Below are positions 1 to 11,889 of a stretch of 12,053 nucleotides of DNA, piece by piece (the stretch's first letter is position 1; each line of letters opens with the position of its first letter). The position numbers were made by a program, and so were the translations under genes. A model generated the notes under the pieces. The model saw only the letters and a list, made by a program, of their open reading frames with translations. It had not been told where the DNA came from and ran no database searches. Source of the stretch: Granulosicoccaceae bacterium. GTDB taxonomy: Bacteria; Pseudomonadota; Gammaproteobacteria; Granulosicoccales; Granulosicoccaceae. The DNA lies in assembly GCA_023301405.1 (NCBI GenBank), contig JALZUX010000556.1, positions 1 through 12,053 of the forward strand, in the 5' to 3' direction.

Positions 1-3000
1 CCCTCACGAAACTTATCAACTTCTGATTCATCTCTTATCACATGAACCACACCACTCACCGATTCAGCGCCGGCGACACGAGTACCGAACACACTATCGG
101 GACGATCAACAGCATTTTGCTTATTGTTAGACATTGGATCAAATTCCTCAATCCCGGACAGCGTTAACCGAGCCGGTGGTTGTATTGTTTCGTATTCTGC
201 AGCCTCTGCTTGACGTATGCGTATCAGCTGACGCGCTACGGCAAGATACTGTACATCGGCAAGCAGTTCGATCTCATGACAATCCAGGTGAAATATACCT
301 CCGTTAAATTCACACCGGTCATCAAGCGCTAGCAACACTTTGCGAATCAGATAGAATTCACGCAGACATTGATGCTTCGCTTCTTCTTTCAAAGCTTGAT
401 ACCGCTTGGCTCGATCTACAGAAATTTGCAGGATGCGATCATTCAATTTGACAGGTTCTGTATGCGCGGTTTGCTTGCCCCCAAGATTTTCAATCTGTTT
501 TTTTACCAACGCTTCGTCTTCACAGTAACGAGGATGTGAAAATTCATAATCGGTTGGTGCTCGGTGACCGAACAAAGCAATGAAGTCTTCCACCAACGAA
601 GGATCAGTTTTTGATCGCGACAATAAATTCATTGCTTCACTAACAACATTCTCAGGCAGAGTGCCCATTACAGTCATCGGGTCAATATCGCTGCTCGCCA
701 GCTTGTTACTCGCTGCGTTCCAGTAAAATTGATTACAAATATTTATCACCTCTGCCTCAACATAGGTATCAGTGACAAACCGTTCAGTATACCCGGCAAA
801 CAAACTCACCAACTTAGCCGTAGGTAATCGCTCAAAATCCACAGCGACCAGTGTATCCATACGGCGTTTGAAATCAGGTAAAAAGTTCTGCTCAAAATCA
901 TCGGCGATGCGTTGAGCATCTCTGGATAATTTAAATGACGCAAGCGCACCAGGCCCAGTTTTCAAACGGTTTCTCTCTTCCTGCTTGTTCACATACAACC
1001 ATCCGAAAAGCTGATTGACATAAAGCGGCGAATTGCTATTCACCTTATACGGGATACCAAGGCGCTCACAAGCAATATGAGTACTTCCATTCAGATCCCA
1101 TAGCTTCTGCATAAACGACATACTAATGGGTGTGGGTCGCGGCAGAAGTTCTGATAGTTCATTCTGTTCAAGCACTGCATCATTATCTGTTGAGTTTGGA
1201 AGGCCACATAGTACTTTGCTCCTTTCTCTCTCGATTAAGCCGCGTAAATTGTTCTGGCGCGTTACAGAGCGAGTAATATCACGGGCTTGCAGTATATAGA
1301 ACTTCCCGGACTTATAAGCCCATTCGATATCTTGTGGTTTCCCAAATTTCTTTTCAATATTAATTGCTGTTTTTAACAAGTCAGTCATATCGAAAGGTGT
1401 ATCTGAACCTGCCAACAGCGAGCGCCGACCAAACTCGTGAGTTGTCGGAGTGACAGAACCGCTGACTAGATCTTCACCCAGACCAGCAATCATCTCGACA
1501 AGAATTTTTCCCGCTGTTGACGGGTGCTCGGTAAACAATACACCGGCGTACTCAGCATCCACCATTTTTTGGACAAGTATGCCGCCACCAGTATCATCTT
1601 TACCTAGAACCTGTTTTCTGGCGTACTCACTTTTTAGACCGGTATCTAGCGATTTACATACAGTGGCTACACTGGCACTTAAATTATCCCTGGTAACATT
1701 AAGGATGGAATCATACACACCGGCAAAACTTGCATCGTCGCCGTCCTCTGCCACGCCCGAGCTACGCACCGCTACATTTTTTGCTTTTATACTTCCCCAC
1801 GCCTTCCACAACGCTTTATCGTCACCGCTACCGGCTTTTGCATTTTGAAGCTCACTGGCAAGCCCGGTGGTCACAACGAATCCATCTGGTACATTGTATC
1901 CAGCCTCCATCAACTCGCCTAGACGCGCTGCCTTTTTACCTGTTTTCAGTGGAAACTGATGGGCTACTTTAAGCGGGATAATACCGCTGTTCTTATTTAT
2001 TTTGGTATTACTACGAGACCAACCCATGTGCCGGTCGATTGCTGCGATCACCAACATCTGAACCAGAGCGGCAGCCAAACTCAGCACTAGGTACACGCCC
2101 AGCGCCACGCTTAAAGGTATCACTAGCACAGATATCGCACCGGTTCCAAGTGCAATTAGGCCAACTTTGATCTTGGTTAAAGGTCGATACATCGCGACAG
2201 CTAAAACAACAATCAACACAGCTATTACCGCAGGCAAAATGCCAAGCTGATCCGGCAAAGATGCAGAACTGACCCACAATAATGGCGCATTCCAATTGTT
2301 TGCCTGCTCGCTAACTATGTTGAACATCAAAAACATCAGAACAAGATTCAACAGCGAAGCAATCAACGATACCACTGGCGTGATTTTATTATCGGCATGT
2401 AGTTGACTGGTTGCCGCGCCCCGCGCGCCTAAGTCGCTAGCAAATCGCTTTTTAATTTTTCGAATCGCCGGATCAAGCCGTTTCAATACCAACCTATCCC
2501 TTTCCATTTTCAGTGATAGTGGAAACAACAAAAACCGTAGTGCTAACACAATCATTGTAAGCACAACAATGACACTTCCAGTATAGCCAACAAGGCTTGT
2601 TATTCTTTCCCCAATTTTTAAGCGCAACAGTCCCAACAATGACGCCTGGTTCGTTGCGTTCCAATCGGCAACATATTGCTTACCGCCCCCAGATGCAGGA
2701 AGGCTAAACTCATGAGGAACCGTATAACGGCCCGCGAACTGATACCCTTGTCTGGAAATTTTTAAACCGAGAATCTGTGAGTAAAAACAAGAGCGACGGT
2801 CATAACAAACTCCAATAATCGGTTTGTCTGGAAGTGCCGCGATCTTTCGTTGCAAGGACTTAGACTCCTCGGCACGAACGGTCAGATTGATAGCACCCGG
2901 TAAATGCGTTGTTTGGTACTCAGCTGGATATCGTACGTCTATAAAAATTGCGTCTTCGTTCTGCACCAAGTCAACGACTTCGGTGGTTTCCAGCAAGACA

Positions 3001-3824
3001 TCGCGGTTTTCAAACTCCGGGATATCCCGCAGAGTCTCGCGGCTCCCGGAAACCACATCCAGAACACGGTCTTCAGCCATCCATTTCTCATAGCCACCGA
3101 CCATAAATTTAGTTTCCAATCCACGCTCGGCCAACGCGCCCGTTAACTCGGAGCTTCGATTGCCTGAGTAGCAAAGCAACACGACATTGTCACGGCCTTT
3201 CAGGAGATCAGGATTTTGGAGAAGATCAGGATAGCGGATATGTAACGCACCTGGAATTCGACCGCTTTCCACTTCCTCGTCTTCTCGAACATCAACCAGG
3301 GTAACGGAAGAACTGGGTTCGAGAATAGAGTTTGATACCATGCCATCATGCAGGATTGAAAGGTCAAGGGTGCTTATGCCACGTTTGCTTTCTATCTGTT
3401 CACTGGCAGACAACGTCTGCAGTGAAACTCCGCCTACTTCTTTATTATTTTCTACCGCCTTCCGATACAAATTGGCACTTAATTGCTGCGACCTGATGTC
3501 TGACTGGCGAGCGTATTGCCAAATATTTAGTGCGGCAGATATTACCAATATAGCAGCAACCCCACCCAGAACGGCCTTACTTCCGGCACTCGAAACTCGT
3601 GAGTTTTTTCTGACAGGCTTCTTTCGCGAAACAAAAAACCCACCAACCAACACGCTGGCCATTCCCAAAACTTGCGCTAGACTGGCGGTAAGATTAATGA
3701 CTAGGTCAGGAGAAGGTATTGCCCAAACATTTGCACTCACTAGTAACAGCATAAGAGCTGCTACTAACTTGATAGCCTTCATCACCAAGCCACTTACTGC
3801 AACGCGGCTCCATAAAATATTCAT
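1..3824 (-). CDS. Tandem rhodanese / YidC-like membrane domain / PEP-synthase-type phosphotransferase fusion (partial, C-terminus beyond the window)
   Basis: One uninterrupted frame of 1274 codons from ATG 3824, running off the left edge. Visible parts in order: hydrophobic segments at about 17-35, 44-66 and 83-104; rhodanese 1 (about 155-250; LVDVRE, Cys218 in CYSGNRSS); rhodanese 2 (about 278-372; FIDVRYPAEY, HLPGAIN, Cys340 in an atypical loop); a YidC/Oxa1-like domain (about 395-600; Arg430 in LRFLLFPL, then a basic loop, LLWVSSASLPDQLGILP, and GVYLVLSLAAALVQ); a PPDK N-terminal ATP-binding domain (about 622-860; AVRSS at 685-689, SFAG, GVLFTEHP at 761-768, GLGEDLVSG, QDIEW, ILQARD); a middle domain beginning ELLPRPTP near 891; and the start of a PEP-utilizer mobile domain near 1247. 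The catalytic His would lie outside the window. The ATG overlaps the kinase stop as TAATG, with GGAAGG seven bases upstream, so coupling is likely. Met15 could start a neater signal peptide (MKAIKLVAALM, ending NVWA) but has no clear ribosome site. Domain calls rest on motif recognition; the substrate is unknown. Confidence 0.9.
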   Translation of the reverse strand, partial: MNILWSRVAVSGLVMKAIKLVAALMLLLVSANVWAIPSPDLVINLTASLAQVLGMASVLVGGFFVSRKKPVRKNSRVSSAGSKAVLGGVAAILVISAALNIWQYARQSDIRSQQLSANLYRKAVENNKEVGGVSLQTLSASEQIESKRGISTLDLSILHDGMVSNSILEPSSSVTLVDVREDEEVESGRIPGALHIRYPDLLQNPDLLKGRDNVVLLCYSGNRSSELTGALAERGLETKFMVGGYEKWMAEDRVLDVVSGSRETLRDIPEFENRDVLLETTEVVDLVQNEDAIFIDVRYPAEYQTTHLPGAINLTVRAEESKSLQRKIAALPDKPIIGVCYDRRSCFYSQILGLKISRQGYQFAGRYTVPHEFSLPASGGGKQYVADWNATNQASLLGLLRLKIGERITSLVGYTGSVIVVLTMIVLALRFLLFPLSLKMERDRLVLKRLDPAIRKIKKRFASDLGARGAATSQLHADNKITPVVSLIASLLNLVLMFLMFNIVSEQANNWNAPLLWVSSASLPDQLGILPAVIAVLIVVLAVAMYRPLTKIKVGLIALGTGAISVLVIPLSVALGVYLVLSLAAALVQMLVIAAIDRHMGWSRSNTKINKNSGIIPLKVAHQFPLKTGKKAARLGELMEAGYNVPDGFVVTTGLASELQNAKAGSGDDKALWKAWGSIKAKNVAVRSSGVAEDGDDASFAGVYDSILNVTRDNLSASVATVCKSLDTGLKSEYARKQVLGKDDTGGGILVQKMVDAEYAGVLFTEHPSTAGKILVEMIAGLGEDLVSGSVTPTTHEFGRRSLLAGSDTPFDMTDLLKTAINIEKKFGKPQDIEWAYKSGKFYILQARDITRSVTRQNNLRGLIERERSKVLCGLPNSTDNDAVLEQNELSELLPRPTPISMSFMQKLWDLNGSTHIACERLGIPYKVNSNSPLYVNQLFGWLYVNKQEERNRLKTGPGALASFKLSRDAQRIADDFEQNFLPDFKRRMDTLVAVDFERLPTAKLVSLFAGYTERFVTDTYVEAEVINICNQFYWNAASNKLASSDIDPMTVMGTLPENVVSEAMNLLSRSKTDPSLVEDFIALFGHRAPTDYEFSHPRYCEDEALVKKQIENLGGKQTAHTEPVKLNDRILQISVDRAKRYQALKEEAKHQCLREFYLIRKVLLALDDRCEFNGGIFHLDCHEIELLADVQYLAVARQLIRIRQAEAAEYETIQPPARLTLSGIEEFDPMSNNKQNAVDRPDSVFGTRVAGAESVSGVVHVIRDESEVDKFRE

Positions 3825-6094
3825 TAGGCCGCCTTCCGATTTGGTGCAACACCATTATCACGGTTTTGGCTTTTTTCAATCCAGTGAAGTAACTTTTCTT
3901 CGAACAAATCCGGCTCAAACGGCTTGGCAAGGTAATCATCCATGCCAGCCGCTAGGCATTTCTCTGCATCCCCGGACATCGCGTTAGCAGTAAGGGCAAT
4001 AATCGGTATAGATGCCACCGCCGAATTAGCATGTTGCCGAATTCGCCCGGTCGCTTCGTAGCCATCCATTTCCGGCATTTGACAATCCATCAGAATGACA
4101 TCGTAGGTACCTTCATCAAGTGCCGTTAAAGCATACTTTCCGTTATCGGCTGTCTCGACCTCAAACCCTAGAGCTTCCAACATACCGGTAGCAACCAGCT
4201 GATTGATTTCGTTATCTTCTACGACTAATATCTTTGCGAAGAGATCACGGTGGGAAGATTCCTCTTTAGCCGGTATCGGAGTAGGCTTGTTCACTTGCCC
4301 AACAATAAGATCAGCTAATGAATTATGTAGCGACTCAAGACGCGCTGGCTTGGTGATATGGAGGCCAACACGCTCATTGTTATTTGACAAAATGCTATGT
4401 GACTTGCTGTGCATATAAACCAGCGTCATCAGCTTAACATTATCATACTTGGGGTTCTCAGCAAGTTTACGTACGAATGTTTCACCATCCATATCCCCTA
4501 ACTGACTATTCACTAACAAAGCATCATAATGATCTTGCGCCTTTTCAAGGCACGCAAATCCGTGTTGCGCTTTAGCAAAGGCGTGCACCTGGCAGCCAAG
4601 CAGCTTTAAAAATATGGAAAGAGATTCACGCGCCATGTCGTTCTGATCGAGCAATAACACTTTAGCTCCGACAAGTCTATTATAAACTTTGGCCGGTACT
4701 GCTTTTGTGCAAGGCGAAAAAGGCAGCTTAAACCAGAAAATACTGCCCTTACCCGGCTCAGATCGAACGCCGATTTCTCCACCAAGACCTTCAACCAGTT
4801 GCTTTGAGATCGACAGTCCTAAACCGGTACCGCCAAACTTTCGGGTTGTTGAACCATCTGCCTGAGAAAAGGATTCAAATATTGAATCAATTGCTTCGTC
4901 AGATATCCCAACGCCACTATCCTGAACTTCAAAAACTATTGCTCTAGTCTGATCTTGAGCCAAGCGGGTACGAACTACAATTTCACCATCTGTTGTGAAC
5001 TTTATCGCGTTCCCCATTAAGTTGGTAAGCACTTGCCGAATTCGCGTTGGATCACTGTTTATCATAACAGGGATAGTAAAATCCATATCAGTGATCAGCT
5101 CAAGGTCTTTACCGTGAGCTTGTGTTGCCAATGCGCCGCATGTGTCTTCGACCAACGACAATATACTAAAATCAATCGATTCAAATTCCATTCGGCCGGC
5201 TTCGATTTTTGAGAAATCGAGTATATCGTTGATAAGACTCAGGAGATTTTTCCCAGAAGATACCGCTGTTTCTACACAGTCCTTCTGGCTGCCGTCGAGT
5301 TGAGTTTTACTAAGGAGATTAAGCATGCCGAGCACACCGTTCATCGGTGTTCTAAGTTCATGACTCATGTTAGCCAGGAATTCAGACTTAGATCGCGAGG
5401 TAAGTTCTAGCTCCCGCTCCCGAGCCACTCTTAGCTCCATGAGACTACCCAACTCGGTTACGGTATCGCCAAGCTCATGCAACTCCTTGGCGATCGCGAC
5501 CTTGACAGGCTCGCCATTGCGCCCAGCCTGAAGCTCTACCAACTTCGTATGAATAGAACCTATCGGTGTGATTACTAACTTCATTATCAGCATCATTACT
5601 AACAGAGCAATGACGGTAAACGCACCGATTGTATACATCCATATTTTTTGCACATGCGCCTCGACAGTAGCGCGCTGCCCGCTAGCGTCCCATATGATGG
5701 CTATTGTGCCAAATGATTCACCCTCAAAAACAACATCTTGACTGAATGGAATTTGTAAACCGGGATCCAATGCATTTTCGCTCTTCCATGCAGCCAGCTC
5801 CTCATTGAATTCATTAACAATCGAAAGGGCGTGAATATCTTTATCAAGCTCAACTGATTGCGCGACTATTGTTTCTAAGATCGGCTGATCTTCACTTAAA
5901 ACCGCGTCAAGCGAAGTAGCAAACAGCATGTTAAAAGTCTTTTGACTAAATTGCTGAAAGCTATCCTCTAGAGTTCGAGTTTGTACATTCCGCATGTACT
6001 CACCGGTAATAAAGGCTACCGTAGCAAAGGTAAGCGTCAAACTGACAATTAATAGCCTTTGCAGTGAATGTTTTTTTGATTGTTTTACTGACAT
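3824..6094 (-). CDS. Membrane hybrid sensor histidine kinase (sensor-HAMP-HisKA-HATPase-pseudoREC-REC)
   Basis: A 756-residue inner-membrane hybrid kinase. TM1 is about 13-32, an extracytoplasmic domain of about 118 residues follows, and TM2 is about 151-174. A HAMP-like linker (about 172-225) leads to HisKA with phospho-acceptor His245 in MSHELRTP. The ATPase domain has N362, DSGVGI (392-397) and GGTGLGLS (421-428). The first receiver (about 477-597) is degenerate: Asn529 sits where the acceptor Asp belongs, and the acidic pair reads D-Q, though Lys582 of TKPA remains. The second receiver (about 619-740) is intact, with E626/D627, Asp670 in MDCQMPEMDG and Lys724. There is no HPt domain, so phosphate must go to a separate HPt such as that of the divergent kinase. 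Start ATG has GGAAAAG about four bases upstream. It lies downstream of a PhnD-like binding protein, its likely sensory partner, and overlaps the next gene by one base. The class resembles BarA/TorS; no precise orthologue is recognised. Confidence 0.95.
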   Translation of the reverse strand: MSVKQSKKHSLQRLLIVSLTLTFATVAFITGEYMRNVQTRTLEDSFQQFSQKTFNMLFATSLDAVLSEDQPILETIVAQSVELDKDIHALSIVNEFNEELAAWKSENALDPGLQIPFSQDVVFEGESFGTIAIIWDASGQRATVEAHVQKIWMYTIGAFTVIALLVMMLIMKLVITPIGSIHTKLVELQAGRNGEPVKVAIAKELHELGDTVTELGSLMELRVARERELELTSRSKSEFLANMSHELRTPMNGVLGMLNLLSKTQLDGSQKDCVETAVSSGKNLLSLINDILDFSKIEAGRMEFESIDFSILSLVEDTCGALATQAHGKDLELITDMDFTIPVMINSDPTRIRQVLTNLMGNAIKFTTDGEIVVRTRLAQDQTRAIVFEVQDSGVGISDEAIDSIFESFSQADGSTTRKFGGTGLGLSISKQLVEGLGGEIGVRSEPGKGSIFWFKLPFSPCTKAVPAKVYNRLVGAKVLLLDQNDMARESLSIFLKLLGCQVHAFAKAQHGFACLEKAQDHYDALLVNSQLGDMDGETFVRKLAENPKYDNVKLMTLVYMHSKSHSILSNNNERVGLHITKPARLESLHNSLADLIVGQVNKPTPIPAKEESSHRDLFAKILVVEDNEINQLVATGMLEALGFEVETADNGKYALTALDEGTYDVILMDCQMPEMDGYEATGRIRQHANSAVASIPIIALTANAMSGDAEKCLAAGMDDYLAKPFEPDLFEEKLLHWIEKSQNRDNGVAPNRKAA

Positions 6095-6214: not shown

Positions 6215-7186
6215 TTATTCAGCGTCAGAAATGTCAGCGATCTCTTCTTTTACACTAGCAGGAAGTCCAGTAACAGCTGACTTACCAAACTTCTTTTTAC
6301 TGAAAAATCGCTCATTACCCTCAATTGCTTTGCGTATCACCTCATAGTCAAGATCTTCCCCTTCTAAGAATCCGTCGATCTTAAGGCGTGTCAGAGACTC
6401 TTTGTCTGTGAGTTCCAGTAGGCATTGTCGCAACGCGTCAAAGACCTCGGCATCTAATCCAGACCGTGCTATCCATGGCTTGGTGACATTTGGAAACCGC
6501 GCAAGCTCACGAATTTTCTCGCCTTTTGAAAGTAACTTTCTGAAAGTAGATTCGTTCAACGCGCCTGCGGTAAATTCACCGGAACCCACCTTAGTACCGA
6601 CTATGTCATGTCGGCCAAGGTACTCAAAATGACTCAGATCCTTAGCGCCAACGCCATTTTCAGCAAGGTACTGCTGTGACAAAAAGCGACCAATAGTTGA
6701 TTGCTGATCACCAAAGCCGAAAGTATGACCCCTTAGCTCAGCGACACTTTTCATAGTGTTATCAACATGAGTCGCAATAATACCGTGAAATACTTTACTT
6801 TTATTTATGCTTTCCATTGCCAGAATCTTTAAGTCCGGATTGCTTTTCTTCGCCTCGATATAGGGTGCTGGCCCAAACCTGGAAAAATCTACCTTACCTG
6901 CAGTTAAATGTGCGATTCCTTGCTCGTAATTCTTAGCTAGTTGCATACGAATATTGACAGGCACTCCCAACTTTTCTTCCATTTTGACTTCTAAGTGTTT
7001 CACGATAGGTCGAAACTTACGCACCATCGTAGAAGGCTTGTTACTTGTATAAAGCCCGAGGCTGAGTGTTACTCCATTCTCATCCCTAGTCTCTGCCGAG
7101 GCCAGCGGACTCGCAATAAGACATACCGCCACAGATACGGCACATAAGGGTACTTTCAGCATTCTACTTAGTCTTGCAGCTACCAA
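6215..7186 (-). CDS. PhnD-like periplasmic substrate-binding protein (phosphate/phosphonate family)
   Basis: A 323-residue protein with a Sec signal peptide (hydrophobic core about 12-28, likely cleavage after Ala31 in PLASA). The mature part shows the PhnD/phosphate-phosphonate binding-protein pattern: LGLYTSNKP near 43-51, FGPAPYIEA (104-112), LRGHTFGFGD and QSTIGRFLS (151-170), and a GSGEFTAGALNEST segment. Family members bind small oxyanions in the periplasm for ABC uptake. No permease or ATPase gene is present here, and the next gene is a membrane histidine kinase, so a sensory role is more likely. AioX, an arsenite-sensing PhnD relative working with AioS, is a precedent, but the mature protein here has only one Cys (Cys255), in the C-terminal part, so arsenite sensing is not indicated. 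The start is TTG 7186, chosen because GGAGAG lies five bases upstream; Met9 is the alternative and has no clear ribosome site. The ligand is unknown. Confidence 0.9.
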   Translation of the reverse strand: MVAARLSRMLKVPLCAVSVAVCLIASPLASAETRDENGVTLSLGLYTSNKPSTMVRKFRPIVKHLEVKMEEKLGVPVNIRMQLAKNYEQGIAHLTAGKVDFSRFGPAPYIEAKKSNPDLKILAMESINKSKVFHGIIATHVDNTMKSVAELRGHTFGFGDQQSTIGRFLSQQYLAENGVGAKDLSHFEYLGRHDIVGTKVGSGEFTAGALNESTFRKLLSKGEKIRELARFPNVTKPWIARSGLDAEVFDALRQCLLELTDKESLTRLKIDGFLEGEDLDYEVIRKAIEGNERFFSKKKFGKSAVTGLPASVKEEIADISDAE

Positions 7187-7477: not shown

Positions 7478-9709
7478 GTGCAAAAGAAAATAATTTTAAC
7501 TGACTACGCTGTACCGGCCTGCATGCTCGCCCTGCTCGGCTTGCTGTGGCCGCTGTCCTCATGGGGCTCTGGTACCACTGTCTTAGTAGTCGCGTTATTC
7601 GTGGTCATATCCTGCTTAGGAGTTGGCTATGCCCGCCGGCAACGAGCAAAGCTCAACCAGGCAGAACAAAACACGTTAGATGCTGTTCAATGCGCAGAAG
7701 AACAGAACCAACAATTCTCCCAGAACCACTACGAGATGGAGAAAGAGCTCGAAACTCTAAGGACACGCGTCAAAACAACTGAATCAGTCAAGGAACGGTT
7801 TCTGGCAAATATTAGTCATGAAATTCGTACACCAATGAACGGCATTTTTGGCATGACTGACTTGCTATGCCAAACTCAGCTAAACTCAAATCAGCGACGT
7901 TACGCTGATACAATCAAAAGATCGACCGAGTCATTGCTTAATATCGTCAATGATATCCTCGATTTCTCAAAAATCCAAAATGGCGAATTAGAACTAGAAT
8001 ATTCCCACTTTCATTTGGGACATTTACTGGAAGACGTGTGCGACCTCTATGCTGAAATCGCACAAAAAAGAGGCTTAGAAATCATTTGCAATGTATCTTC
8101 TGCTGGAACCGCCATAGTGAACGGCGACTCGGCTCGGGTAAGGCAGATACTGGATAATCTGGTCAGTAACGCCATTAAGTTTACCGAGGGAGGTGAGGTC
8201 GTGGTGAGCGCCACCGCCATCGAGGCGACTAACGAGTTTCAGCTAGCGGTTAGTGACAGTGGCATGGGCATCGCTCCTGAAATTCAAGATCACATATTTA
8301 AAGAATTCACACAGGCTGATTGCTCCACGACTCGACGCTTTGGCGGTACAGGACTAGGGCTGTCGATAGCGAATAAACTTGTTACTTTGATGGGCGGCAA
8401 GATAAGTCTTCAAAGCAACCCGGGTGGTGGGTCAACGTTCACCTTTACCGGAAACCTGACTCTAGTAGGAACTACATCCGAACCCGTTGTTCACGATCAA
8501 ATTGACAACATCAAAGCACTAATCGTGGACGACAATACCACTAATAGCGCTATTCTGACACACCAGCTTGAGCTGTGGGGCATCGAGGCCCACAGTGTGG
8601 ACTCCGGGCGCGCAGCATTGGATCTACTACAAGCTGCACATCAAGACAAGAAGCCGTTCAACATTGCTATCCTTGATTTGCATATGCCCGAAATGGACGG
8701 CCTTGAACTGGCCAGCCACATACAGCGCAACCTAAACCACGCGTCATTGAAAAGAATGATGCTGACATCATCACTAACCAATATGACCAGTGATGAGCTT
8801 CAAGGTATTGGAATATCCTTTGCGCTAACCAAGCCCGCAAGACAGTCGTCCTTGTACAAAGCTATACAGGATATGATCAAACCTGTCGTCTCAGTTGAAC
8901 CAAACCCACAACAGCGATTAGAGCTACGTAAAACAAGCAAGCCAAAAATTTTACTGACAGAAGACAACCCTATAAATCAGGAAGTCGCTTGCATAATGTT
9001 AGAAAGCATTGGATGCGAAGTTGAGATCGCAGAAAACGGTTCAGAGGCCGTAGATGCTCTGGCGGCAAAGCAATTCGATCTGATTTTCATGGATTGCCAG
9101 ATGCCAGTTATGGACGGCTTCGAGGCAACACGCACCATCAGAAGTCAGTCCAGTCAAAATAATATTCCCGTTGTTGCATTGACCGCTAATGCGATGGAAC
9201 GCGATCGGGAACTTTGCATCGCCTCCGGCATGGATGATTACCTGAGTAAGCCGGTAAAGCAAAATGAATTACAAAGCACCCTTGAAAAATGGCTTTACCA
9301 AAGGCCGGTTGCTAACACAAATAATTCCCCTCCTCCAACACCAAAAGAGGCATTGGAAACAATGAACTTTGAATTTGACGAAAGTGCACTAGATGCTATT
9401 AAAGCTCTACAGCGGCCAGGGAAACCCGATATTCTTGCCAGAATAGTGAATATGTATCTGGAGAAAACACCGGAGCTTATCACCGACATCGAACAGGGCG
9501 TTGCCGCTAACGATGCCGCCCGGGTAAAAATGGCAGCACATACACTTAAATCCAGCAGCGCGTATCTGGGGGCTACCACGTTAGCGGCCCAATGCAATAC
9601 GCTGGAAGCCAAAGCCGCTAACGAAGATCTTTCCGATAGCAGCACAGATGTTTCGATCATTAGCTCTGGCTTCGACGAGCTATGCTTACAAATAAAAAAA
9701 TTCGCCTGA
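7478..9709 (+). CDS. Hybrid sensor histidine kinase with two receivers and an HPt domain
   Basis: A 743-residue tripartite phosphorelay kinase. Two hydrophobic segments (about 9-27 and 33-52) are joined by only a few residues, so there is no sizeable periplasmic sensor. A polar, probably coiled-coil region (55-105) follows. HisKA has His114 in ISHEIRTP. The ATPase domain has N231, DSGMGI (260-265) and GGTGLGLS (289-296). Receiver 1 (about 346-465) keeps D351/D352, Asp400 in LDLHMPEMDG and Lys452. Receiver 2 (about 489-606) keeps E495/D496, Asp539 and Lys591. The HPt domain (about 633-740) has His688 in AAHTLKSSSA. The start is GTG; the frame is open upstream to a stop at 7382 but offers no ATG, GTG or TTG, and the ribosome site is weak. 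It is divergent from the PhnD-like gene and followed within 20 bases by a receiver-containing cyclic-di-GMP gene, its likely phosphate acceptor. Confidence 0.95.
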   Translation: MQKKIILTDYAVPACMLALLGLLWPLSSWGSGTTVLVVALFVVISCLGVGYARRQRAKLNQAEQNTLDAVQCAEEQNQQFSQNHYEMEKELETLRTRVKTTESVKERFLANISHEIRTPMNGIFGMTDLLCQTQLNSNQRRYADTIKRSTESLLNIVNDILDFSKIQNGELELEYSHFHLGHLLEDVCDLYAEIAQKRGLEIICNVSSAGTAIVNGDSARVRQILDNLVSNAIKFTEGGEVVVSATAIEATNEFQLAVSDSGMGIAPEIQDHIFKEFTQADCSTTRRFGGTGLGLSIANKLVTLMGGKISLQSNPGGGSTFTFTGNLTLVGTTSEPVVHDQIDNIKALIVDDNTTNSAILTHQLELWGIEAHSVDSGRAALDLLQAAHQDKKPFNIAILDLHMPEMDGLELASHIQRNLNHASLKRMMLTSSLTNMTSDELQGIGISFALTKPARQSSLYKAIQDMIKPVVSVEPNPQQRLELRKTSKPKILLTEDNPINQEVACIMLESIGCEVEIAENGSEAVDALAAKQFDLIFMDCQMPVMDGFEATRTIRSQSSQNNIPVVALTANAMERDRELCIASGMDDYLSKPVKQNELQSTLEKWLYQRPVANTNNSPPPTPKEALETMNFEFDESALDAIKALQRPGKPDILARIVNMYLEKTPELITDIEQGVAANDAARVKMAAHTLKSSSAYLGATTLAAQCNTLEAKAANEDLSDSSTDVSIISSGFDELCLQIKKFA

Positions 9710-9726
9710 GCTGACTGCAGTTGCCA

Positions 9727-11889
9727 ATGGATAATAAGTTAAAACAATCTACGCCGGACGCGTCCAAGCCATTAGTACTCGTGGTGGATGATGATATTGC
9801 TGGCCTACTAATGGCCTCAGAAGCTTTAGCGTCAGACGGCTTTGAGGTGATCGAAGCCGAAGACGGCCAAGAGGCAGCTGAACAGTTCGCCAAACACCAG
9901 CCTGACGTGATCATTATGGATGTAGTAATGCCGCGCATGGATGGGTTTGAAAGCTGCGCGCTTATTCGCCAAAGCGACGGTGGACATCATGTGCCGATCC
10001 TGATGATCACGGGGCTCGAAGATGTTGACTCTATCCAGCGGGCATACGAAGTGGGAGCCACAGACTTTGTCACTAAACCGATAAACTTCTTTTTGCTACC
10101 CTATCGTGTGCGATACATGATGAGAGCCAAGAAAACCGCAGATGCACTTCGAGAGAGTCAGGTCAGGCTGGACAATGCACAACGTATCGCCAAGCTTGGC
10201 CACTGGGAATGGATCTTCAACGAAGATATATTTCATTGGTCTGCGGAGAGCCTTAAACTGTTAAATCTTAGTTCACCTGGCGACTCCGATCACAAGCTCA
10301 ATGGTTTTTTAAACTGCATTCACAAAGATGACCGCAAGCCGGTGGCAGCGGCGCTTGAACGAGCAAAGAGTGATTCCGATCATTTACAGATCACGTTTCG
10401 CACCAACACCAACAATGAAGAAAACATTCGAATTGTTCACGTCGAGGCTGAAACCTCTTTGACTGGCCATATGGTTGGCACCGTTCAAGACATCACAGAA
10501 AGAACCAACGCTGAAGACCAGATTCATAAACTGGCTTACTACGATCTAGTCACCGGGCTGCCTAACCGCGCTCATTTATACGACATGATTACCATTGCTC
10601 TAAGACAAGCAGAACAAAGCAAAAGCAAATTTGCGCTTCTGTTTCTGGATTTGGATCACTTTAAGCAGGTCAACGACACGCTAGGACATAACGCGGGTGA
10701 TATGCTTTTGCGCACCGTATCAACACGCCTGCAAGACGCCATCCGTAGATCCGATAACGTCTCCCGAGGTGCCGATTGCTCAGAAATCGCCCCACCCGAG
10801 ACAATCGCACGATTAGGTGGCGACGAATTCGTTGTCTTACTCAACGGCATAGATCGAGTTGAGGACGCCGCCTTTGCTGCGCGAAGAGTGTGTCAGGAGA
10901 TATCAAAACCGTTTAACCTTGACGGCACTGAAGTCAGAGTAACCACCACAATTGGCATCAGTCTTTATCCCTCAGATGGAGATTCAGCAGACAAACTCCT
11001 AAAACATGCTGACGTCGCGATGTATCACGCCAAAGAACAAGGACGAAACGGCTATCAGTTCTACTCACAAAGTATTCATCAGTTAGCGCTGGAGCGATTT
11101 TCACTGGAACGCGACCTTCGAGAAACCGTTGAGCATGGCGGATTCCACCTAGAGTACCAACCCAAAGTTGCGCTGCAGGATACCTCGCTGACAGGCGTAG
11201 AGGCACTGATACGCTGGGATCATCCCGAACGTGGACGTGTTAACCCCGCAGACTTTATCCCTCTGGCTGAAGAGACAGGACTGATCGTGCCGCTGGGTGA
11301 ATGGGTACTGCGCACTGCCTGTGATCAAATGATAAAGTGGATGGAAGCCGGTATTCCACCATTTATCATGGCTGTCAACTGCTCTGCCATCCAACTGGTA
11401 AGAACCGATATGGCAAGCGTGATCAAATCAGTGCTTGATGAAACAGGCCTGAATCCGACTTACCTTGAAATTGAGCTCACTGAAAGCTTACTACTACAAA
11501 ACGTAGAAGAAGGGATCGCGATACTACATGCGCTTAAGGACCTTGGGCTGCACGTTTCAATTGATGATTTCGGCACAGGTTTCTCATCTCTTAGCTATCT
11601 CAAAAGGTTGCCGGTTGACAAACTGAAAATTGACCAGTCGTTTATTAAAGACCTTACCACTGACCCGGGTGATGCTGCCATCGTTACATCCATGATTACA
11701 CTAGCACACAACCTTGACCTGACCGTTGTCGCCGAAGGCGTTGAAACCAAGGAACAACTGGGCTTCCTACGTGCAGAACGTTGCGACGAAATTCAGGGAT
11801 ACCTCATCAGTCGCCCACTGACCGCCGATGCATTTTCACGTTGGTTTGAGGAACAAGAATACGATGACCAAAAATCTCAGGCAGCATGA
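9727..11889 (+). CDS. Response regulator with PAS, GGDEF and EAL domains (cyclic-di-GMP turnover)
   Basis: A 720-residue cytosolic protein without membrane segments. The receiver (about 15-135) keeps D21/D22, acceptor Asp65 in MDVVMPRMDG and Lys117. A PAS domain (about 148-262) starts near AKLGHWEW and ends in VQDITERTN. The GGDEF domain (about 264-445) has an intact GGDEF (364-368), and the EAL domain (about 458-705) keeps its main residues: E492 of EAL, N551, E583, D613/D614 in IDDFGTG, K634, E670 and Q690 in QGYLISRP. Both cyclase and phosphodiesterase active sites therefore look intact; which dominates cannot be told from sequence. About 15 residues (348-362) separate the RRSD motif from LGGDEF, displacing a possible inhibitory site. 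ATG 9727 is preferred over an in-frame TTG at 9721; neither has a strong ribosome site, so coupling to the kinase gene 17 bases upstream is likely. It is the only dedicated output regulator in the window. Confidence 0.95.
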   Translation: MDNKLKQSTPDASKPLVLVVDDDIAGLLMASEALASDGFEVIEAEDGQEAAEQFAKHQPDVIIMDVVMPRMDGFESCALIRQSDGGHHVPILMITGLEDVDSIQRAYEVGATDFVTKPINFFLLPYRVRYMMRAKKTADALRESQVRLDNAQRIAKLGHWEWIFNEDIFHWSAESLKLLNLSSPGDSDHKLNGFLNCIHKDDRKPVAAALERAKSDSDHLQITFRTNTNNEENIRIVHVEAETSLTGHMVGTVQDITERTNAEDQIHKLAYYDLVTGLPNRAHLYDMITIALRQAEQSKSKFALLFLDLDHFKQVNDTLGHNAGDMLLRTVSTRLQDAIRRSDNVSRGADCSEIAPPETIARLGGDEFVVLLNGIDRVEDAAFAARRVCQEISKPFNLDGTEVRVTTTIGISLYPSDGDSADKLLKHADVAMYHAKEQGRNGYQFYSQSIHQLALERFSLERDLRETVEHGGFHLEYQPKVALQDTSLTGVEALIRWDHPERGRVNPADFIPLAEETGLIVPLGEWVLRTACDQMIKWMEAGIPPFIMAVNCSAIQLVRTDMASVIKSVLDETGLNPTYLEIELTESLLLQNVEEGIAILHALKDLGLHVSIDDFGTGFSSLSYLKRLPVDKLKIDQSFIKDLTTDPGDAAIVTSMITLAHNLDLTVVAEGVETKEQLGFLRAERCDEIQGYLISRPLTADAFSRWFEEQEYDDQKSQAA

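Follow-up and report, generated by a model that had tools for sequence, protein, structure and literature searches.

The whole stretch analysed (the window, 12,053 nucleotides, which is the entire contig JALZUX010000556.1, G000:C556) comes from a Granulosicoccaceae bacterium and carries at one end a gene whose product is, judged from its sequence, a single protein composed of a signal peptide, two transmembrane (TM) helices, two rhodanese domains, a YidC/Oxa1 membrane core and a dikinase of the type of RPH, the rifampin kinase. This fusion gene is one unbroken minus-strand open reading frame of 1274 codons, 3-3824(-), with its 3′ end lost at the contig end. A full-length copy, P0001 (1412 amino acids, aa), supplies the PEP-utilizers swivel domain that follows the cut end; it is reported as identical to the window's fusion (100%) across the query, but inspection by eye shows a difference at residue 77.

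Layout of the fusion protein

3-3824, minus strand: gene for the fusion protein, 1274 aa up to the contig end, which removes the 3′ end; 1412 aa in full-length P0001
3465-3824, minus strand: residues 1-120, signal peptide, AIPSP motif and two predicted TM helices with a basic loop between
3051-3404, minus strand: residues 141-258, rhodanese domain 1, Cys218 within CYSGNRSSE
2700-3050, minus strand: residues 259-375, rhodanese domain 2, Cys340 within CYDRRS
2025-2639, minus strand: residues 396-600, amphipathic helix and five-TM YidC/Oxa1-type core, Arg430
1245-1982, minus strand: residues 615-860, ATP-grasp domain (PPDK_N)
90-1187, minus strand: residues 880-1245, middle domain resembling the RPH substrate-binding domain (Lys1146-Glu1147, Lys1150)
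3-89, minus strand: residues 1246-1274, first part of the swivel domain; His1307 lies past the contig end and is visible in P0001

A sequence-only reading of this DNA had proposed that a single uninterrupted frame joins two rhodaneses, a YidC-like core and an ATP-dependent dikinase in that order. The frame and its Pfam matches bear this out: there are two Rhodanese stretches (E 2.8e-24), a 60KD_IMP match spanning residues 418-593 (53.6 bits against a cut-off of 35) and a PPDK_N match (E 4.8e-41), and the order recurs in an alignment of 66 homologues and in Pfam scans of six. The proposed likeness of segment 395-600 to YidC also stood when profile and fold were compared, since both match: assignment to the YidC/Oxa1 family has the 60KD_IMP profile and a five-TM fold behind it, and the score against TIGR03592, the NCBIfam model of the YidC core, is 46.3 bits, below its cut-off of 84.3. 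Arg430 and Pro435-Leu436 align to the Arg and Pro-Leu of YidC, which are Arg366 and Pro371-Leu372 in E. coli numbering, and Arg430, the predicted TM2 Arg, is conserved in 65 of the 66 aligned homologues.

For the rhodanese domains there is a fold match together with active-site Cys loops, Cys218 being present in 66/66 and Cys340 in 65/66 of the same homologues, and a predicted model of residues 1-640 matches both YidC and rhodanese structures. Charge bias of the loops across the 66 sequences places the rhodaneses outside and the C-terminus inside, in keeping with the earlier suggestion that the pair occupies the position of the periplasmic P1 domain of YidC.

RPH is the closest solved structure to the cytosolic part, and its domain order is found there as well: ATP-grasp, substrate-binding domain, then swivel with the His near the C-terminus, the swivel His of RPH itself being C-terminal according to PMC4844700. 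With RPH residues as named in that paper, a HMMER alignment pairs Arg117 with Arg687 of the fusion, Thr136 with Ser706, Arg666 with Lys1146, Glu667 with Glu1147, Lys670 with Lys1150 and His825 with His1307; judging by residue identities, numbering of the RPH chain in the alignment is apparently 12 off from that of PMC4844700. Catalytic residues for both phosphotransfers are retained with two conservative changes (Thr136 to Ser and Arg666 to Lys), conservation at these sites being counted over 28 sequences, and RPH Lys22, matched by eye only, is Lys631 (28/28). HpeHI, a two-part kinase of hydroxyphenylethanones, has the same build (PMC12167813), and the relatives of RPH are small-molecule kinases (PMC4844700, PMC12167813). 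Because the RPH catalytic residues are kept and HpeHI is of the same build, the cytosolic part is filed here as a small-molecule dikinase; it would phosphorylate a small molecule, yielding AMP and inorganic phosphate (Pi). The initial designation as a phosphotransferase of phosphoenolpyruvate (PEP) synthase type has consequently to be replaced by RPH type, the swivel His being at the C-terminus. PEP synthase and PPDK themselves were rejected for want of the C-terminal PEP/pyruvate barrel: P0001 ends 74 aa past the swivel match, with no such Pfam match.

Homologues, conservation and distribution

A homologue search returned 280 proteins at E <= 0.001, and the counts that follow cover the 120 listed (the best 120 of the 280, in a table that does not show the order of domains). 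PF00581, PF02096 and PF01326 occur together in 120/120, and the PF00391 swivel domain in 119, the exception being P0091 at 1268 aa. Motif tallies are similarly high: 119 for the loop of rhodanese 1, 118 for that of rhodanese 2, 118 for the YidC Arg with KxERD, 113 for VAVRSSG, 111 for QDIEW[AS] and 119 for the swivel GGxLSH. The AIPSP motif is present in 28/28 sequences of alignment A1 and in 117/120 of the wider tally, followed by D or E. Among eight diverse members mean identity is 49% for rhodanese 1, 58% for rhodanese 2, 37% for the YidC core, 52% for ATP-grasp, 48% for the middle domain (25% for its final 70 residues) and 51% for the swivel, in which 19 of 100 columns are invariant with the truncated P0091 excluded. 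The YidC core is the least conserved large domain, with 4% invariant columns. On these comparisons the protein's working parts would seem to be the dikinase and the two rhodaneses, with a looser core that still keeps its Arg. The newer Pfam family PF27448 is recorded on many homologues and was not found in Pfam scans of P0013, P0077, P0091 and P0103.

That homologues might exist as separate genes was also considered. Searching with only the N-terminal half brought up 41 shorter proteins, of which 19 have PPDK_N in the table and 22 lack it. In an alignment of those 22 with the 120 full-length proteins, 21 ended at scattered points, mostly within a domain and some with an unrelated tail, as expected of fragments or frame shifts. 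Separate-gene homologues were not found by this search and alignment, P0142 (592 aa, 16 member sequences) being ambiguous: its end falls directly behind the YidC core, and it may be a real protein of shorter form. P0150, perhaps a chimera, starts with the ATP-grasp domain and passes into part of an EAL domain.

Members are named as Granulosicoccus, Lusitaniella (a cyanobacterium), Planctomycetota, Chromatiales and Rhodobacteraceae, with others on roseobacter plasmids, among them pPGA1_262 of Phaeobacter inhibens DSM 17395, where the fusion is PGA1_RS19240, the binding protein PGA1_RS19235 and the kinase PGA1_RS19230. At the thresholds used, matches were present in 17/48 genomes of the window's family (incomplete copies included), 5/369 sampled genomes of the class, 3/398 of the phylum and 5/198 of one roseobacter family, counts that include the own or centre genomes; one scan of viral contigs gave no relative. 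A patchy spread of this sort is expected of an accessory, partly plasmid-borne trait. No description of the fusion was found among the results listed from the open-access literature, subscription papers and preprints being outside the scope. Since some databases hold composite automatic names for it, the fusion is catalogued though apparently undescribed.

Binding protein, hybrid kinases and c-di-GMP

The remainder of the window carries the following genes.

3824-6094, minus strand: hybrid histidine kinase with two receiver domains
6215-7186, minus strand: periplasmic substrate-binding protein of the PtxB/PhnD/AioX family (PF12974)
7478-9709, plus strand: second, divergent hybrid kinase, HisKA-HATPase-REC-REC-Hpt, which recurs as a neighbour in Gammaproteobacteria
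9721-11889, plus strand: response regulator with GGDEF and EAL domains, GGDEF motif intact; PAS match below cut-off

The order binding protein, hybrid kinase, fusion is all on the minus strand, and the stop codon of the kinase overlaps the ATG of the fusion (TAATG). This operon and the cyclic di-GMP (c-di-GMP) context described below are additions to what the sequence-only reading reported. By eye, Asn replaces the expected phosphoacceptor Asp in the first receiver of the kinase at 3824-6094. Of 35 loci inspected that hold the fusion or its remains, 28 have it complete or nearly so with flanks visible; the 28 include the window, despite its cut 3′ end, and G031, where the gene is split over two contigs, and omit G001, G008 and L027 (contig edge), G587 and L026 (partner only a piece at a contig end) and G016 and G029 (fusion incomplete). 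Binding protein and hybrid histidine kinase both flank the fusion in 25/28, loci that are not phylogenetically independent (L073 and L075 come from one species), and in roseobacter loci these two partners are oriented divergently to the fusion. A rough further sign of linkage comes from binding-protein homologues located on contigs of at least 10 kb: 26 of the 60 listed share the exact longest-contig size with a listed fusion. In G016 an 878-aa dikinase stands without the rhodanese-YidC part and without the binding protein, the kinase being kept; G016 and G029 (L046, L047) give the appearance of a decay series at a shared locus, from a dikinase lacking its membrane part to a remnant of the middle domain.

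The closest solved relatives of the binding protein are 5jvb (E 9e-24) and PtxB (E 2.9e-22), phosphonate and phosphite binding proteins, then AioX (E 4.2e-6). The STS motif of PtxB is STI here, with Ile165 in 24/24 aligned (24 of the 25 genes, L092, located by tblastn, being left out), and the ligand may therefore be unlike phosphite or phosphate. According to PMC5908839, AioX has a sensor role and a pocket of Tyr88, Cys106, Tyr131, Ser161, Ser163, His192 and Asp210; through PtxB-type alignments one Ser, the His and the Tyr residues of these appear to be kept, and the second Ser is Ile165. The coupling to oxyanions that had been suggested stays conjectural: the usual neighbour is of the PtxB/PhnD/AioX family, yet it has Ile in place of one pocket Ser.

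Three lines of evidence suggest that c-di-GMP probably controls the module. In the window the second hybrid kinase adjoins the binding protein, as it does in ten other loci (G009, G020, G030, G032, G779, G781, G784, G785, G790 and L024), and beyond it in three loci (window, G009 and L024) is a receiver-GGDEF-EAL protein, those of G009 and L024 being close relatives of the window's. In G161 the binding protein is present and the kinase is replaced by a PAS-GGDEF-EAL protein whose N-terminus resembles kinase residues 31-240 (122 bits). PilZ is fused to 22/120 listed homologues, 21 of the 22 having the usual c-di-GMP binding motif.

Other neighbours are more local. In three same-genus genomes (L022:14231-15283, L033:4499-5542 and L044:3210-4262) the fusion is followed by a gene for a protein of about 350 aa that looks by eye like a lipoprotein, the L022 protein having a sub-threshold phytase-like esterase match (26.1 bits against a cut-off of 27.6). 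In 7/7 roseobacter plasmid loci read (L070-L076) the kinase has genes for a zinc ABC transporter and a Fur-family regulator next to it, which may be synteny. TRAP transporter genes adjoin the fusion in nine Granulosicoccaceae loci (from similar protein starts, G028 alone having been Pfam-scanned) and in G809; they are not counted as a link because their binding proteins differ in family (DctP, TAXI). The P. inhibens plasmid is said to carry synthesis of tropodithietic acid, and a link to that compound was dropped, there being no tda-annotated gene in the plasmid stretches read.

Proposed function, alternatives and known counterparts

The explanation favoured, tentatively and at somewhat under even chances, is that the fusion is a dikinase of the membrane that carries a persulfide module on its periplasmic side and is under the control of the binding-protein/kinase sensor and probably also of c-di-GMP. 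The PtxB/PhnD-fold protein would capture its ligand outside and the hybrid histidine kinase would read it, in the manner of AioX-AioS. On the periplasmic face the rhodanese pair would handle sulfane sulfur via Cys218 and Cys340, while the YidC-type core would anchor the pair and lead into the cytosolic dikinase, acting as adaptor or gate in the membrane between the two chemistries and not as an insertase for general use. The dikinase would move phosphate from ATP onto His1307 and then to a small-molecule acceptor, giving AMP, Pi and a phospho-product, with c-di-GMP regulating the module. A bolder form, which we regard as unlikely, has a signal-gated transmembrane dikinase in which a repurposed YidC core joins periplasmic persulfide chemistry to ATP-driven cytosolic phosphorylation, a group-translocation or vectorial-phosphorylation machine switched by the binding-protein/kinase sensor and c-di-GMP.

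Several observations weigh against the favoured proposal. With a predicted TM-score (pTM) of 0.54 for the N-half model, placement of the rhodaneses on the core is tentative, and the core may seem loose merely from fast drift of membrane helices. G227 and G809 carry the full fusion with neither the binding protein nor this kinase nearby (an unrelated kinase adjoins it in G227), so the partners are dispensable there or lie at another site. The paired loss in G016 amounts to a single event, only the remnant surviving in its relative G029; the binding-protein pocket departs from those of phosphonate and phosphite binders; and the c-di-GMP lines come from different lineages, P0001 being without PilZ.

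The linkage to binding protein, hybrid kinases and c-di-GMP proteins, the PilZ fusions and the periplasmic placement of the rhodaneses would also suit a transmembrane redox or persulfide sensor, in which an outside signal persulfidates the rhodaneses, the core transmits and the dikinase His serves mainly in signalling as a phosphohistidine that might exchange with receiver domains of the kinases nearby. This is rather improbable, as a pure signalling His would not need the RPH acceptor-site residues Lys1146-Glu1147 and Lys1150 that are kept. Somewhat more doubtful is the idea that hydrophobic toxicants or antibiotics are captured and inactivated at the membrane, the YidC groove taking them up, the dikinase phosphorylating them in the way that RPH treats rifampin and the rhodaneses dealing with thiol or cyanide-like stress. 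The nearness of RPH, whose relatives act on small molecules (PMC4844700, PMC12167813), the patchy distribution and plasmid carriage are consistent with it; binding protein and kinase suggest instead a specific ligand, and the seven annotated plasmid stretches hold no resistance or drug-efflux annotation, a weak argument given that neighbours at other loci are mostly unannotated.

A dedicated membrane-protein insertase or quality-control factor, with clients sulfurated or phosphorylated, would explain retention of the TM2 Arg and the overall YidC fold. It is quite unlikely given the low conservation of the core, partner domains that are small-molecule enzymes, and a separate YidC-like protein also present in same-genus genomes G001 and G009. 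(The sole PF02096 match in G000 is the fusion, which is uninformative on a separate YidC as the assembly is 86% complete.) An artefact of sequencing, frame or assembly joining separate genes might be suspected from the contig end falling within the gene. It is refuted, to the point of being negligible, by the same domain set in all 120 listed homologues from several sources and by the fusion on complete roseobacter plasmids.

A conserved three-part trans-membrane protein with intact active sites would count as a membrane enzyme of a new kind and would put the YidC fold to a new use, the novelty lying in architecture and context, and the P. inhibens DSM 17395 homologue makes the fusion testable in a cultured bacterium now. 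YidC-type cores are viewed as insertases. With YidC/Oxa1/Alb3 the fusion shares the five-TM core fold, TM2 Arg, Pro-Leu motif and the helix before TM2, but has two rhodaneses for P1, a long C-terminal dikinase and the sub-cut-off NCBIfam score. Rhodaneses usually stand alone or are fused to sulfur enzymes, and classical tandem rhodaneses use only one Cys; like tandem rhodanese/thiosulfate sulfurtransferases the fusion has a pair of rhodanese domains with a Cys loop in each, whereas it keeps both Cys and is membrane-attached. Known dikinases of the RPH kind are soluble. Those of RPH/HpeHI type have the same order of ATP-grasp, substrate-binding domain and C-terminal swivel-His, with the checked catalytic residues kept in the fusion, which differs in carrying a YidC-type core in the membrane and a pair of rhodaneses in the periplasm. 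The resemblance to AioX-AioS is in a PtxB/PhnD/AioX-family binding protein beside a membrane histidine kinase (PMC5908839); the differences are Ile165 for a pocket Ser, a hybrid kinase with two receivers and, in the window, the lack of a DNA-binding regulator between kinase and fusion.

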